From Thermotoga sp. (lineage in GTDB: Bacteria; Thermotogota; Thermotogae; Thermotogales; Thermotogaceae): a stretch of 44,146 bases of DNA. Below are positions 7,497 through 28,631 of the stretch, piece by piece. Location: the NCBI RefSeq assembly GCF_021162145.1, contig NZ_JAGGZH010000014.1, positions 1 to 44,146 on the forward strand, written 5' to 3'. Made by a program: the position numbers and the translations under genes. The notes beneath the pieces are model-generated. The model searched no databases, was not told where the DNA came from, and saw only the letters and a program-made list of their open reading frames with translations. Positions within the stretch are counted from its first letter, which is position 1; the number at the start of each line of letters is the position of its first letter.

Positions 7497-7571
7497 TGGA
7501 GCGGGCGACGGGATTCGAACCCGCGACCCCCAGCTTGGCAAGCTGGTGCTCTACCACTGAGCTACACCCGC
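7497..7571 (-). tRNA. tRNA-Gly (anticodon GCC)
   Basis: This 75-base cloverleaf has acceptor stem GCGGGTG paired with CGCCCGC. The anticodon loop TTGCCAA is closed by CCAGC/GCTGG, giving anticodon GCC. The T-arm contains GGTTCGAATCC, and the terminal CCA is encoded. It is the third and last tRNA of a tandem minus-strand cluster. Confidence 0.96.
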
Positions 7572-7583
7572 CTAACACCATCC

Positions 7584-7670
7584 TGGTGCGAGAGGTGGGA
7601 CTTGAACCCACACGGGCATCAGCCCACTGGATTCTAAGTCCAGCGCGTCTGCCAGTTCCGCCACTCTCGC
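7584..7670 (-). tRNA. tRNA-Leu (anticodon UAG)
   Basis: This 87-base tRNA has acceptor stem GCGAGAG paired with CTCTCGC, a long class II variable arm, and an anticodon loop CTTAGAA closed by CTGGA/TCCAG. The anticodon TAG reads CUN leucine codons. CCA is encoded. It is the middle gene of the three-tRNA cluster. Confidence 0.96.
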
Positions 7671-7675
7671 ACCGC

Positions 7676-7751
7676 TGGTGACCCGGGTGGGATTCGAACC
7701 CACGGCCCCCTGATTAAAAGTCAGGTGCTCTGCCTGCTGAGCTACCGGGTC
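7676..7751 (-). tRNA. tRNA-Lys (anticodon UUU)
   Basis: This 76-base tRNA has acceptor stem GACCCGG paired with CCGGGTC, an anticodon loop CTTTTAA closed by CCTGA/TCAGG, a standard T-arm and an encoded CCA. It is the first gene of the cluster and follows a clear promoter. Confidence 0.96.
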
Positions 7752-10800: not shown

Positions 10801-12099
10801 TTTCCTTCGATGGGGCAGTTCGGTTCTCAGTGCCTTTCTGCAGCGTTCAGATACTACAACGTCAGGTCCGATGTGTGCCCACCACCGGATGTGGAGGAGT
10901 TCAAGCTCGGAAGAGGAAATTCCCTGTCGAAAGAGTGTCTTCCACTCCAACTCACACTCGGAAGTCTCATAAAGTACGTGAGGGAGAAGATGAACCAGGA
11001 CGAGATCGTTCTTTACTTCATGCCGGAGACGATGGGTCCGTGCAGATTCGGACAGTACAGTGTTTTCATGAACCTGTGGCTGGACAGAAACAGTGTGAAG
11101 AACGTCGCGCTCTTTGGGCTGAACTCCGAAAACGCCTACGCTGGTCTGGGAGTGGCTTTCAGAATAAGAGCGTGGCTTGCTGTGGTCGTGTCAGACGTCT
11201 TTTTCGACGTGGAACGAGGTGTAATGACGCTTGCAAAGGACAAAGAAGAAGCAAGAAAGGTGGTGGAGGGTTGTAGAGAGAAAATATTGCTCAGTCTGGC
11301 GAACGACCCCCTGGGGAAATTTTTCAAAACGCTGGAAGAGGTTGCCGAGATACTCTCCAGCATCGAAAGAAAGATGAATTACGAAAGTGCTCCCAAAGTG
11401 CTCTTGACGGGGGAGATATATGTCCGAAGAGACGAGTTCTCCAGAAAGAACCTCGAAGAACTCATGGAAAAGAACGGAATCATCATGCACATTTCTCCTG
11501 TGCACGAGTGGATTTACTACACAGATTATCTTTTCCTGAACAGGTTGATTTCACCCAACTCCACGACGATGGACAGGCTGAAAAAGCGTGTGGAAGTGCT
11601 GGTCAAAAGGTACATAGAAAAAAGAGTGAAGAGGATTATGGAAAAAACAGGTTTTTACAAGAGACATGTTGTGAACGTGAAGGAGATCGTCGAGTCTGCC
11701 AGAAACTACCTGAACCCAAGGCTCACGGGCGAAGCGATTCTCACGATTGGTACCATTCTCCACGAGATAGTGGCTCATTACGATGGTGTCATCTCCATAG
11801 GACCTTTTGGATGTATGCCAAGTAGAATAGCAGAGGCGATCGTGAAGAAAGGATTGGAAGAGCAAAAACGCAAAGTAAAAGGAAGGATAAAAAAGGTACT
11901 GGAGGAATTCGGAGACCTTCCGGTGATCCACATAGAGTCCGATGGAAATCCCTTCACACCAACTGTCCAGAGCAAGCTGGAAGCTTTCATGTTCCAGGTG
12001 AGGCGTTTGAGAAACTACCTCAACGGTGTGCTCAATGGCTCAGGTGTTGTGGAAGAATGTCCGGAGAGCGCTTCGGAAGAGATCAGGGTTGATTCATAA
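7852..12099 (+). CDS. Large CoA-substrate-specific activase fusion (HgdC-like ATPases plus HgdB-like/DUF2229 region)
   Basis: This is a 1415-residue fusion related to activators of 2-hydroxyacyl-CoA dehydratases and benzoyl-CoA-type reductases, which couple ATP hydrolysis to low-potential electron transfer. Two ASKHA-fold modules are visible. A divergent one spans about residues 1-255 (SAGGENT, CASGTGEFF). A canonical one starts near 284 (LGIDVGSTTTKA, IGGQDAKY, NEACSAGTGSF). Cysteines near 411 and 451 sit where HgdC binds its bridging [4Fe-4S] cluster. A Cys cluster near 572-583 (CPGGKERCDRKC) opens a DUF2229-like region. The C-terminal half has HgdB-like motifs (SKECLPLQ, ETMGPCRFGQY, IGPFGCMPSR). 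ATG 7852 has an AGAGGTGAT site. The natural substrate is unknown, and no separate dehydratase subunits lie nearby. Confidence 0.88.
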   Translation: MTGVCIGSSSVSFYNENEKGNLPHNGDPLALLSSMIPTFLERGPVVLTGRKTREAIDLPQISEAEATEIAYRHLMKKYGQVEAIVSAGGENTVLYRVNEKGIITGIYTGNKCASGTGEFFLQQLQRMGVSLEEANKVNVEDYYELSSRCTVFCKSDCTHALNKGVPKELVLNGLGKVMADKIVELAHKASVRKILLVGGTTRNKLMLKHLKKLLEIVVPEEALFFEAYGAYLWGIASGVETKRTFVVKKEKRTSFPTHEPLRKYAHLVEFKEMPFQEARDGDVCVLGIDVGSTTTKAILMRYEDNAILAGVYLRTLGDPIKAARQCYTSILEQLNGTKVRIIGLGVTGSGRKIVGLYSQTDAVYNEIMAHAKAAAYFDPEVDTIFEIGGQDAKYTYLVNGVPTDYAMNEACSAGTGSFLEEAAGESLRVHYTEIGDLAMKGENPPNFSDQCAAFIGSDVKTAVNEGISKEDICAGLVYSVCMNYLNRVKGNRPIGKKIFMQGGVCYNKAVPIAMAALVGKRIVVPPHPGLMGAYGVALLTKENLELGFLKEREFDLKKLISREVKYRGTFICPGGKERCDRKCEIRIIEIDGKRFPFGGACNMYENVVRHLNVDSTKYNFVKRRERFIFGFERSSRSRKTIGLSKSLAMNNLFPLFYTFLEELGFDVVVPEKSDRRGWEMKNSEFCFPVELSHGYMYDLLSKNPDLVFIPRIRGIKVENSENYNVFCPFVQSEVDWLSSAFPSLKGKLVTEYFDFSRGDEREQFLKLAEKLGKSREEGEKAFERALEIFHERFESIKKQWNDFLRTLEDAEFGVVLFGRSYNAFSSDANMGIPEKFATRGIPIINFDSLPFEKEDGYRNMYWSWGEMILKAARFVKKHPKLFGVYITNFSCGPDSFIISYFRDIMGKKPSLILELDSHTADAGVETRVEAFIDIVRSYLKLKKKDEERKEIKRPYTILEKGKLYVITPDGKRKTLDDEQVKVVFPSMGQFGSQCLSAAFRYYNVRSDVCPPPDVEEFKLGRGNSLSKECLPLQLTLGSLIKYVREKMNQDEIVLYFMPETMGPCRFGQYSVFMNLWLDRNSVKNVALFGLNSENAYAGLGVAFRIRAWLAVVVSDVFFDVERGVMTLAKDKEEARKVVEGCREKILLSLANDPLGKFFKTLEEVAEILSSIERKMNYESAPKVLLTGEIYVRRDEFSRKNLEELMEKNGIIMHISPVHEWIYYTDYLFLNRLISPNSTTMDRLKKRVEVLVKRYIEKRVKRIMEKTGFYKRHVVNVKEIVESARNYLNPRLTGEAILTIGTILHEIVAHYDGVISIGPFGCMPSRIAEAIVKKGLEEQKRKVKGRIKKVLEEFGDLPVIHIESDGNPFTPTVQSKLEAFMFQVRRLRNYLNGVLNGSGVVEECPESASEEIRVDS

Positions 12100-12790
12100 G
12101 AATTTTCAAAGTATCCTTTTCTATCTTGGAGAAACGTGGATCCGAGAGTACTTCGAGCATCCTCGGTTTTGGAAACGGTACTGAAATTTCTTTCAACACC
12201 TTTGTGGGTCGCGGAGAAAGAACCAGAATTCTGTCGGAGAGAAATACAGCTTCCTCCACGTCGTGTGTGATTAGGATAGCGGAACTTCCCATCCTGTGTA
12301 TTTCCTCTGAGAGCCATATCTGAAGCTTTTTCCTCGTGTACGCATCGACCGAGGAAAAAGGTTCGTCGAGTATCAAAAGATCTTTTCCGGACAGAACGGC
12401 TCTCAGGACTGAAAGCCTTTGCCTCATACCTCCGCTCAACTGGTAGGGGCGCTTGTTTTCGAACCCTGAGAGTCCAAACCTTTCAATCAGTTCCTTCACG
12501 TTCTCTGTGGCTTTTTCCTTCCTCAAAATGAGTGGAAGAATGGCGTTCTCGTAGACCGACATCCAGTCGAAGAGTACATCCTTTTGAGGGCAATACCCCA
12601 CACTGGATGTAGAGAGCACCACACTTCCTTCGTGTGGAATAAGTCCGAGAATGGCCTTCACGATGGTTGTCTTACCACAGCCGGAAGGCCCCACGAGAGA
12701 GAGGATCTCCCCCTCGAAAAGGTCCAGGGAGAGATCCTCCACCACCGGTATATCATCGTATCGAACCCTCAGGTTCTTTACCGAGATCAC
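12083..12790 (-). CDS. ABC transporter ATPase of a thiamin/pyrimidine-type importer
   Basis: This 235-residue ABC ATPase of the nitrate/taurine/HMP family has Walker A GPSGCGKTT, signature [10 protein letters not shown], Walker B LLILDEPFSSVD and a switch His (ITHDVEEAV). It would energise import through the adjacent permease at the inner membrane. GTG 12790 forms a GTGA overlap with the upstream binding-protein gene and gives the usual N-terminus. The longer open frame upstream lies inside that gene and is rejected. The 3' end overlaps the convergent activase-fusion gene by 17 bases. The substrate is inferred from the neighbours. Confidence 0.88.
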   Translation of the reverse strand: MISVKNLRVRYDDIPVVEDLSLDLFEGEILSLVGPSGCGKTTIVKAILGLIPHEGSVVLSTSSVGYCPQKDVLFDWMSVYENAILPLILRKEKATENVKELIERFGLSGFENKRPYQLSGGMRQRLSVLRAVLSGKDLLILDEPFSSVDAYTRKKLQIWLSEEIHRMGSSAILITHDVEEAVFLSDRILVLSPRPTKVLKEISVPFPKPRMLEVLSDPRFSKIEKDTLKILMNQP

Positions 12791-13733
12791 GGGAGAAACT
12801 CGTTTGTGAACGCCTTCGTCACATCTATTATTTCCTTCAGAAAACCCGTCGAATGAAGCCATTCTGCGTATCTCCTCCACACCTCTTCTTTCTGGTATCC
12901 CCACTTTTTGGTGTCTGCTTTGTATTGACTGGCAAGGTACTTCTGAGATTCCACGACTATCTTCTCGTCGAGTTCTGGAGCGTATTTCAAAAGTATCCTG
13001 GCTGCCTCAAGGGGATGTTGTACAGCGTATTCGTAACCCTTCGCCGTCGCCCTGAGAAATCTCCTCACAAGATCCGGATCCTTCTCTATCAGAGATTCAC
13101 TCGTTATGAGAACTGGGGTATAGTAATCAAAGATTTCGTCTATCTCTCGAAGCGGAAGAAATTCTATTTCTATTCCTTTCACCTTACTTGCAACACCATC
13201 CCAGCCGTAGAAGATCCAAGCGAAGTCGAATACATCGTTCAAGGTCCCGGCGAAGAAGTCCATCTGTCCGACGTTCACGAAGATCACCTTCGAAGGATCG
13301 GCACCGCACTTCTTCATAATGTATTCTATTGTCGCTCTCTCTCTATGGGAGATCCCCAGGTTCCGTATCTTTTCCCCTCCCAGTCTTTCACGCTCTTTAT
13401 ACCTTCACTCTTCAACCATGCAAATCCTGATGTGTTGTGCTGTATGATAGCGGCTATCGAGACGATAGGTAGTCCTTCTCCTCGAGCGAGCGTTACCGCC
13501 TCCTGGTAGCTGACGCCAAAATCCGCCTTACCACTGGCCACGAGTTGTTCCGCTGTGAGTCTGGAAGGTTGAACGATCTCCACGTTTAGGCCTTCTTCTT
13601 CGTAATACCCGAGATCCTTGGCAACGTAGAGCCCTGTGTGATTCGTGTTTGGATACCAGTCCAGAACAACTGTCACTTCCTTCGCGAAGAATACAAGGGG
13701 GATCAAAAAAAGGAGCGCCAAGATCTTTTTCAC
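12787..13733 (-). pseudogene. Frameshifted periplasmic binding protein (NMT1/THI5-like, ThiY type)
   Basis: Two frames together make one full-length binding protein. The N-terminal part starts at GTG 13733 with a signal peptide ([16 protein letters not shown]) and the typical [20 protein letters not shown]. It runs to GSPIERERQ and stops at 13326. The C-terminal part continues in another frame as [17 protein letters not shown] down to 12787. The switch falls on a (CT)5 run at 13335-13344. Removing two bases, or adding one, restores a continuous protein of about 315 residues. Such proteins bind thiamin or its HMP precursor. The cause could be real inactivation, slippage-based switching or a base-calling error. 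It overlaps both neighbouring transporter genes by four bases. Confidence 0.85.
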
Positions 13734-14482
13734 GATACCAGCCTCCTTTCCTCAAACCACGATGTGAACCTTCTCGAGAGCAGATCTACCATTTTGAACA
13801 CAGCCACGCTCAGAACTACCACTATCACGATGGAAACGAAGAGTCTGTCTGCTCTGAATGTGTTCATTGCTCTGATCATGTAGATTCCAAGTCCTTTCTC
13901 TGCTCCAAGCCACTCACCTATAACGGCAGAGACCACGGCGTACGTTGCGGATATTTTCAGACCAGAAAAGACGTACGGAAGTGTGTGGGGAATTACCAGG
14001 TGCCTGTAGATCTGGACTTTGGATGCTTTCATCACCCTGAAAAGATCCAGCGCGTCCGGGTCTATCGTTCTGAAGCCTTCTAGGGTGTTGAGCGCCACGG
14101 GGAAAAGTGTCACAAAGGCCACGACACCGACCTTCGTTCCAATTCCAAGTCCAAACCAGATGACAACGAGTGGTGCCACAGCGACTATGGGAATCGCCTG
14201 TGAAACGATCAGGATGGGATAGAGTATCTCCCTGATCACCTGAAGGAGATCCATCAAAATAGCAAGCCCCACACCGATCACAAGACCGATTGCTAGCCCG
14301 GAGAGGGACTCAGCAATGGTGTAAAGACTGTGCGCAAGCAGGATCCTCCACTGTGAGATCATCTCTGAGACAATGGAAGACGGCTTTGGAAGGAGGTACT
14401 GTGGAACACTTGAAAGCTCCCAGATGGTCAGTAGAGCAAGCAGAAAGCACCACTTAGCGATACTTTGATACTTTCTCTTCAA
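13730..14482 (-). CDS. ABC transporter permease of a thiamin/pyrimidine-type importer
   Basis: This 250-residue inner-membrane protein has about six hydrophobic segments. It carries the binding-protein-dependent permease loop that docks on the ATPase ([21 protein letters not shown]). It belongs to the ThiX/SsuC/TauC-like group. TTG 14482 is chosen because GGAGGT precedes it by seven bases. The longer frame from 14527 lacks this and runs further into the upstream gene. It overlaps the thiamin-binding protein gene by 29 bases and the binding-protein gene by four (GTGA), indicating a tightly coupled operon. Confidence 0.87.
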
Positions 14483-14738
14483 TGGTGATACCTCCAGACC
14501 TGTAGTCCACATCGAGCTGGAGAACAAATCTTCTTACAAATCCCTGGAGATACCTGGCGAGCTCCTTCACCCGATCCATGATCTCATCGAAGTCTCCCTC
14601 CACCGTGGTGTTGGAAGGTCCCACTTCGTACTTCATACCCCACGATGCGATCTTTTCTATTGCTCTGTCAATTACTTCGTGGAGTTTTCCATCCTCTACA
14701 GCAGGTACTACTTTTATAGAAACTGTAACCTTCGGCAT
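14454..14738 (-). CDS. Thiamin-binding protein, MTH1187/YkoF-like (DUF77)
   Basis: This 94-residue cytoplasmic protein has the MTH1187/YkoF ferredoxin-like fold pattern (VTVSIKVVPAVEDGKLHEVI, then YEVGPSNTTVEGDFDEIM). The T. maritima counterpart, TM0486, has been reported to bind thiamin. Here it heads an operon with a permease, a binding protein and an ATPase, so a role in thiamin or HMP handling is a reasonable inference. GGAGGTGATCGT precedes the ATG. No TPP riboswitch is visible in the short leader. Confidence 0.87.
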   Translation of the reverse strand: MPKVTVSIKVVPAVEDGKLHEVIDRAIEKIASWGMKYEVGPSNTTVEGDFDEIMDRVKELARYLQGFVRRFVLQLDVDYRSGGITIEEKVSKYR

Positions 14739-21721: not shown

Positions 21722-22520
21722 TTATATTTCGATTCCAAAGATCCTTCGAGCGATCACTCCGACGAGGAAAGAGAAAGCAGCCACACCGAAGCTGAAGAGG
21801 AACATCTCCAAAAAGTAGCTACTGAACTCCTTGACCACAGAAGCGAAGAAGGTGAAGAAAAGAACAACCAGAATGGCTCCAGTCAGTGTGAACACCAGGG
21901 CCACGAAAGGATTCCCGAGAACGAGGAAGGGGTTCACAAGTATTGCAACGGTAACTGTGTAAGCAAGACCCGTGTACAGTGCTGCCTCGTAAAGGGTTAG
22001 TTCTTTCGGCTTGTTCCTCCGCTATGCTTGTTATCAGTCCGGGAAGCCCTACTATCTTGGAGTTCTGGAAGGCGAAGGTGAGACCCACAAGTACTCCCGT
22101 CAACTCAACCAGGGCGTCGTTAAGGCCAAAAACCGTGGAGCTGACATAGTTCAAACGTTCCTCATCGAGCATGTTCAGGATCTCCTCTTCGTGCCTTTCC
22201 TCGTCTTTCATGATTTTAACCACTTCGGGAAGGTCTATCTTTTCATAGGCTTTCCCAGCATTTCTCTCGTTTCCTCCCATGAGCTTCAGGGCAAAAGTGA
22301 GACCGAACAAAGTGGCGAAGAGCATGTACCAGAAAGCCAGAAACATCGAAGGCTTGGCTTCTTTTCCTGTGATCTTCCTGAAGATTTCGTAGTGTCTTTT
22401 TTCATCTTCAGCTATAGAAAGAAAGATCTTGATGTTCTTCCTAGAACCTTTCTTGGCCAATCTTCCGTAAACGTAGTACTCTGCGATTTTTTTCCTTTGA
22501 AACTCAAGTATTTCTCTCAA
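21722..22520 (-). pseudogene. Broken Er-VIT/CCC1-type iron transporter (ferritin-like plus VIT domain)
   Basis: The N-terminal part (TTG 22520) has a ferritin-like domain with paired acidic/His motifs (DEKRHYEIF and DEERHEEEIL). Membrane segments follow, up to SSTVFGLNDALVELTGVLVG and GLPGLITSIA. The frame then goes wrong. The correct C-terminus continues one frame over as RRNKPKELTLYEAALYTG, then AYTVTVAILVNPF, to the stop at 21722. In the second frame a stop sits just before this block. About 13-15 residues normally found here, including the family's conserved MxxxEYxS-type segment, are absent. One frameshifting deletion near 22018-22026 explains both facts. Intact relatives move iron or manganese across the membrane. 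Confidence 0.82.
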
Positions 22521-28274: not shown

Positions 28275-28631
28275 GGGGGCGAATGGGTTCGACGGGGATG
28301 GAGTCCCCTGGGAAGCGAGCCGAGGTCCCCACCTCCTCGTAAAAAAGGTGGGAGTTCGAATAAGTGCCAACGAACCTGTTGCTGTTGCCGCCTAGTAGAT
28401 AGGCGGCCGTCCTCTCCAAGGTTGGCTGGGCCTTGGAAGAGGGCGTGAGAGAACCAGCCTACCGATCTGGGTTCCGCCTTCCGGCCCAGATTGGGAAGGT
28501 ACAGGAAGGCTGTGGGAAGAGACACCCTGCCCGTGGGGGGTCCTTCCCGAGACAGAAAACACGGGCTGCGCTCGGAGAAGCCCAGGGGCTTCCATCTTCG
28601 GACGGGGGTTCGAATCCCCCCGCCTCCACCA
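28275..28631 (+). ncRNA. ssrA: Transfer-messenger RNA (tmRNA)
   Basis: This 357-base tmRNA rescues stalled ribosomes by trans-translation. The tRNA-like ends pair GGGGGCG with CGCCTCC, followed by ACCA with CCA encoded. The T-arm contains GGTTCGAATCC, and the 5' part has GGTTCGAC as in other tmRNAs. The mRNA-like part reads GCC AAC GAA CCT GTT GCT GTT GCC GCC and then TAG (28366-28395), adding the tag ANEPVAVAA. That tag matches T. maritima as I remember it. The G/C-rich middle forms pseudoknot-type helices. It lies between the transporter cluster and groESL, with its own terminator. Confidence 0.97.
28366..28395 (+). other. tmRNA tag-peptide reading frame
   Basis: The resume codon GCC starts nine sense codons (ANEPVAVAA) ending in TAG, with a second TAG directly after. 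The hydrophobic Ala-Ala end is the usual degron for ClpXP-type proteases. Confidence 0.93.

Follow-up and report, generated by a model that had tools for sequence, protein, structure and literature searches.

A binding-protein gene of an ABC importer in Thermotoga sp. is split exactly at a short run of CT dinucleotides, which raises the question of whether the break is an on/off switch for vitamin uptake, a recent knockout or a sequencing error. These three readings came from a first-pass annotation of the window, i.e. the whole stretch of 44,146 nt analysed here, which comprises bases 1–44,146 of contig C14 (111,349 bases). The genome holding the window (G000) is a 152-contig draft of 1,686,372 bases that is 99.04% complete. 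We compared it with the six other genomes of the genus (G001–G006), all of which belong to species other than that of the window. The single-contig relative G002 served as the main comparison genome.

The broken gene, here called thiY, lies on the minus strand together with importer genes that overlap or almost touch one another. A thiamine-binding protein gene, MTH1187/TM0486-like by family (14454..14738, minus strand; PF01910, 76.4 bits), is accompanied by an ABC transporter permease gene (13730..14482, minus strand; PF00528, 100.2 bits, scored on ORF 13730–14527), by thiY itself and by an ABC transporter ATPase gene (12083..12790, minus strand; PF00005, 105.5 bits, scored on the longer ORF 12083–12904). 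The thiamine-binding protein scored 34.4 bits against TIGR00106, under the cut-off of 54.7. The start of the permease gene is uncertain, its ORF being open to 14527, and that of the ATPase gene was placed by comparison with the relatives and by its overlap with the end of thiY. All of these genes are present in 7/7 genus genomes, as is the thiY region. The permease and ATPase genes on either side of the break had been judged intact from the sequence alone, and alignment with the six relatives agreed, covering 249–250 of 250 permease codons and 234–235 of 235 ATPase codons; the thiamine-binding protein gene was likewise intact (94 of 94 codons). Between 12000 and 14900 there was no terminator-like site and no minus-strand promoter-like site, and the two plus-strand promoter-like matches found there were no more than shuffled sequences give. 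Since the genes overlap or nearly touch and this region holds no terminator-like site, the thiamine-binding protein, permease, binding-protein and ATPase genes likely form one operon. The closest known system is the ThiXYZ or TM0483–TM0486-type thiamin-precursor importer of Thermotoga, and 14738–14454 is presumably the counterpart of TM0486. Elsewhere, the window also holds a tmRNA gene (28275–28631) and three tRNA genes (7500–7751).

The (CT)5 run, CTCTCTCTCT, occupies 13335..13344 of the plus strand and reads as (AG)5 in the coding sense. The N-terminal part of thiY (13326..13733, minus strand; 135 aa, GTG start, TAG end) passes through the run as an ORF from 13733 to 13326 and reaches its stop eight bases beyond it. 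The C-terminal part uses a different frame, which is already open upstream of the run; taken from its first ATG at 13317, this part extends to 12787 (12787..13317, minus strand; 176 aa). PF09084 (NMT1/THI5-like, ThiY-type) matches both parts above its gathering cut-off of 20.5 bits and over adjoining ranges of the 216-position profile (1–105 at 150.3 bits and 112–216 at 103.7 bits). Both parts also match the same solved chain, 4nmy_A, at residues 5–122 and 129–302. The frame is lost at one place only, where the run differs by two bases; this place is mid-gene, at about codon 132, and both parts are otherwise open. It is 13.3 kb into the 111-kb contig, clear of the contig ends. Opposite the broken gene, a 280-aa plus-strand ORF (12667–13509) spans the run and was taken as a shadow ORF. 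The gene differs from its relatives in two other details: the start is GTG (13733) in the window and ATG in 6/6 relatives, and residue 18, which probably falls close to where the signal peptide ends, is Lys in the window and Glu in the relatives.

In all six relatives, thiY is one open frame of 314–316 aa from ATG, and every alignment shows a two-base gap relative to the window exactly at the run. The (CT)5 run is present in 0/6 of these genomes. The site reads AGAAAGAG in G002 and G005, AGAGAAGG in G001, G003 and G004, and AGAAAAAG in G006, and the window differs from its nearest relatives at the run by a synonymous GAA/GAG change plus the two extra bases. The proposed split at 13335–13344 is therefore borne out in the assembly by a two-base excess against 6/6 relatives, and the accompanying frame arithmetic, that losing two bases or gaining one gives a full-length protein, is right. 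Across the order, a thiY match at 1e-40 was found in 15 of 45 genomes, comprising 13 with one open frame, the window's split gene and one match (in G013) divided between two contigs; of the other copies, those lying on one contig are single-frame in 13/13 cases. A wider contig scan, which may omit the window's own genome, found 18 related loci; judged by the extent of the match, 15 cover the query from at least residue 19 to residue 314. Among the genomes compared, thiY is interrupted in that of the window alone.

In 642,948 bases of G000 there are 13 dinucleotide runs of at least five units, 11 of which are AG/CT and none of which exceeds 11 bases. Five simulated sequences under an order-1 Markov model gave 6–11 such runs, and five under an order-2 model gave 13–23. 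The 1.6 million bases of G002 hold 20 such runs, the longest of 12 bases, so that run density is somewhat higher in G000 (13 in 0.64 Mb) than in G002 (20 in 1.6 Mb; p = 0.18). Eleven of the 12 other runs in G000 lie within ORFs of at least 120 aa, a test that is weak by itself as the thiY run too lies in an ORF (the 280-aa shadow). These ORFs (11/11) match G002 nearly full length, 10 at 68–94% identity and one, on C44, at 38%; the run-bearing ORFs at C14 82079–85420, at C30 2943–4655 and on C44 show one stop apiece in their G002 alignments. At the DNA level, 11 of the 12 other runs align with G002 across the run, with no full five-unit run in G002 and, unlike in thiY, no gap inside any run. 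Judged from these alignments, point changes seem to make and unmake the five-unit runs of G000, which do not form a class of maintained switches. The (CT)5 run in thiY is at chance level and unremarkable, and the split that it marks is real in the assembly.

We examined selection on both parts of thiY, using 308 of about 314 codons and leaving out the few at the break. Between the window and G002, dN/dS was 0.025 for the N-terminal part and 0.038 for the C-terminal part; the values for the permease (0.089), the ATPase (0.055) and the thiamine-binding protein (0.056) were all above both. On the window branch, amino-acid to synonymous changes numbered 12:38 in thiY and 22:70 in the neighbours with G001 as the outgroup, and 15:35 and 23:57 with G006 (Fisher p = 1 in each case), compared with a neutral single-step ratio of 2030:605. 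Comparing amino-acid changes on the window branch with those on the G002 branch leaned weakly toward more change in thiY on the window branch, with 12 v 6 for thiY and 22 v 15 for the neighbours (outgroup G001; Fisher p = 0.77) and 15 v 4 and 23 v 19 (outgroup G006; Fisher p = 0.09). For the C-terminal part, the counts were 9 v 2 (p = 0.28) and 10 v 2 (p = 0.10). With the synonymous changes of that same branch as the scale, nothing of this difference was left (p = 1 for thiY; 0.82 and 0.49 for the C-terminal part). On balance, these counts suggest that for almost the whole of the window branch thiY was held by purifying selection like that on its neighbours. Since thiY shows no relaxation on this branch, the break is either very young or an error; a very young break would leave no trace in such tests, which show youth only if the break is real. 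An old pseudogene was rejected, as neither dN/dS nor the branch counts show relaxed selection.

Frameshifts elsewhere in the two genomes were counted in both directions. Of 394 G002 proteins searched against the fetched part of G000, 28 were flagged, and of 407 G000 proteins searched against 1.6 Mb of G002, 31 were flagged. Reading these by hand (limited to ORFs no shorter than 120 aa whose match covered 80% or more with an identity of 70% or higher) left about 5/394 clean coding frameshifts in G000 and 7/407 in G002 (p = 0.77). The G000 cases are thiY, C14:21989, C10:6880, C38:5846 and C49:2254, and a smaller first pass together with DNA alignments gave the same thiY, C10:6880 and C14:21989 cases. 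Flags with in-frame stops only were set aside, being taken, as a class, mostly as shadow ORFs or upstream starts, as were differences 5′ of the likely start (C24:12505, C10:13873, C10:30726 and a four-base difference of the C14 17098–18030 ORF from G002), an ORF of 208 aa that contains stops (C42:17879) and an apparently degenerate gene (C7:4621–5311). Counting C42:17879 and C7:4621–5311 as well gave about 7/394 in G000 and 7/407 in G002 (p = 1). The idea of an error-ridden assembly was therefore unsupported, because the coding-frameshift rate of G000 is no higher than that of G002. Two-base changes made up 3/5 of the clean frameshifts in G000 and 0/7 in G002, where all were one-base (Fisher p = 0.045, on tiny, hand-picked numbers); two of the four G000 cases other than thiY are two-base, one of them at an AG repeat. 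This excess could fit slight dinucleotide slippage in the lineage, or a habit of the assembly.

Within the window, a VIT1-family gene (21725–22520, minus strand) is broken too, with a one-base difference from G002 near 21989 and a 45-base in-frame loss near 22023, and is one frame in 6/6 relatives. Near 6880 of C10, a two-base loss at an AG repeat, a change like that in thiY and of opposite direction, breaks a gene whose G002 homologue has DHODB_Fe-S_bind as its sole Pfam match. Coding frameshifts relative to G002 also affect a GH94 glycoside hydrolase gene (C49 near 2254) and a calcineurin-like phosphoesterase gene (C38 near 5846), and the apparently degenerate gene at C7:4621–5311 shows several length changes against its 276-aa G002 homologue.

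ThiC, Thi4 and ThiN were each found in 7/7 genus genomes, and TMP-TENI (thiE) in 0/7; ThiN is a replacement of thiE. Each of the seven genomes has one TPP riboswitch, directly upstream of thi4-thiC, and none was found in the window at the Rfam gathering threshold. In G000, thiC is split over the end of contig C94 and the start of contig C43, between which there is an overlap of exactly 46 identical bases, and this is an assembly break, not a broken gene; the overlap was the single informative one among the contig ends compared and says nothing firm on the assembly method. With thiC, thi4 and thiN present, the loss of uptake is therefore probably tolerable: the organism probably has its own route to thiamin and, under some conditions, can probably do without the importer. 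As to what is imported, the first-pass annotation had named a thiamin/HMP-type binding protein. The family and the neighbouring gene fit this name (PF09084 and PF01910), but neither piece of thiY reaches an NCBIfam cut-off, though low scores would be expected of fragments in any case. Of the relatives with solved structures, 3ix1 bears the name of an N-formyl-4-amino-5-aminomethyl-2-methylpyrimidine binding protein, and the closest, 4nmy, is only generally named. Together, the Pfam family, these two structures and the neighbouring thiamine-binding protein gene suggest thiamin or pyrimidine precursors of it as the putative ligand. TM0486 is given as a thiamin-binding protein of T. maritima in work cited in PMC6393860.

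We favour the reading that the one-genome frameshift is a real and recent slippage knockout, an ordinary mutation, with a probability of about 0.58. Chance change in Glu-Arg codons, where the nearest relatives differ by the synonymous GAA/GAG change, is the most likely origin of the run itself, which would not be a maintained switch. Replication slippage would then have added one CT unit to this short run in the thiY-like gene. The extra unit would cut the binding protein after about 132 of 314 residues, and a truncated lobe plus a C-terminal part without a signal peptide should not make a working periplasmic receptor. The sequenced cells probably take up nothing through this importer and probably make their own thiamin. 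We infer that the insertion is real, that it originated by slippage and that uptake is lost.

Alternatively, the gene would be intact in the cells and the extra unit would have come from sequencing, amplification or assembly. The break is a singleton in a 152-contig draft, the relatives' genes are intact, and thiY shows no decay, which suits an error just as well. According to a survey of frameshifts in prokaryotes, singletons that BLASTp validates are expected to be sequencing errors and not genuine indels (PMC3711429). However, coding frameshifts are no more numerous in G000 than in the single-contig G002, the run is short, and 11/12 other runs of such length stand in open ORFs. We rank the knockout over the error on two grounds, the shortness of a five-unit run and the open frames in which the genome's other runs lie; this weighting is a matter of judgement, and an error is a possible but less probable source of the extra unit.

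Among the three readings first proposed, the recent knockout and the error both fit our data, and the phase-variable switch was not supported. In such a switch, frequent and reversible slippage of the run would toggle the importer within the population. The break does fall exactly in a dinucleotide run, CT/AG runs are described as switching genes elsewhere (H. pylori oipA and Mycoplasma mycoides mmyCI), and run density in G000 is somewhat above that in G002. Yet the run occurs in none of the six relatives, all of other species and all in frame; it sits mid-gene; five-unit runs are at chance level with none beyond 11 bases; and the examined part of the genome yielded no set of dinucleotide runs that are long or that differ in unit number. 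Variation of the run was not seen either, as a single genome could show none. With the run at chance level and unconserved, and other runs in open ORFs, the switch was rejected as the main reading and is very unlikely. We regard as equally improbable a young contingency locus in a hyperthermophile, in which chance synonymous changes made the AG run and slippage reversibly sheds and regains a dispensable importer in a thiamin-making population. A useful protein might still be made from the split gene by ribosome or polymerase slippage, or by a restart at the ATG at 13317. That codon, the first ATG of the second part, is eight bases past the first stop, and repeats can in principle permit slippage. 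Such recoding is the least probable explanation of all, given that the frame break is conserved in 0/6 relatives and 6/6 read straight through. Moreover, the RNA fold from 13350 down to 13240 (111 bases) is no better than those of shuffled sequences (z −0.28; 72/200 as good), no slippery heptamer was seen by eye, and a restarted C-terminal part would be without a signal peptide.

As it stands, a one-genome frameshift in a probably dispensable importer gene matters little. If the recent knockout is real, it would be a clean example of an organism that has lost vitamin uptake very recently and retains genes for making the vitamin itself. There is also a caution for annotators, who should not list G000 as being without ThiY, nor read chance CT runs as switches.

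In an overview-level search of the literature on Thermotoga thiamin transport, frameshifts and phase variation, we recognised no account of the thiY break. Compared with the ThiXYZ or TM0483–TM0486-type importer, the window has the same families side by side (PF09084, PF00528, PF00005 and PF01910), and differs in that the binding-protein gene is interrupted, in the window's genome only among the genomes compared. Among contingency genes with CT/AG repeats, H. pylori oipA is described as likewise breaking its frame at a repeat of these two bases, but there the repeats fall within the signal-peptide region at the 5′ end and differ in unit number among isolates, whereas the run in thiY is mid-gene. 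The mmyCI methyltransferase gene of Mycoplasma mycoides is reported to be in frame with 10 AG units and out of frame with 12; its run is at least twice as long as the five units of the window, which are unconserved. The p78 lipoprotein gene of Mycoplasma fermentans, mentioned in PMC3711429, is likewise an ABC-transporter operon gene with a localized frameshift, but is, according to the title of its report, subject to high-frequency phase variation, of which the broken thiY shows no sign. The case also resembles the singleton frameshift class as outlined in the same survey (PMC3711429): as in that class, a single genome is affected at an unconserved site, the homologues are intact, and both Pfam and the relatives confirm the frameshift. 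With no further decay in thiY, the case is compatible with either a pseudogene or an error.
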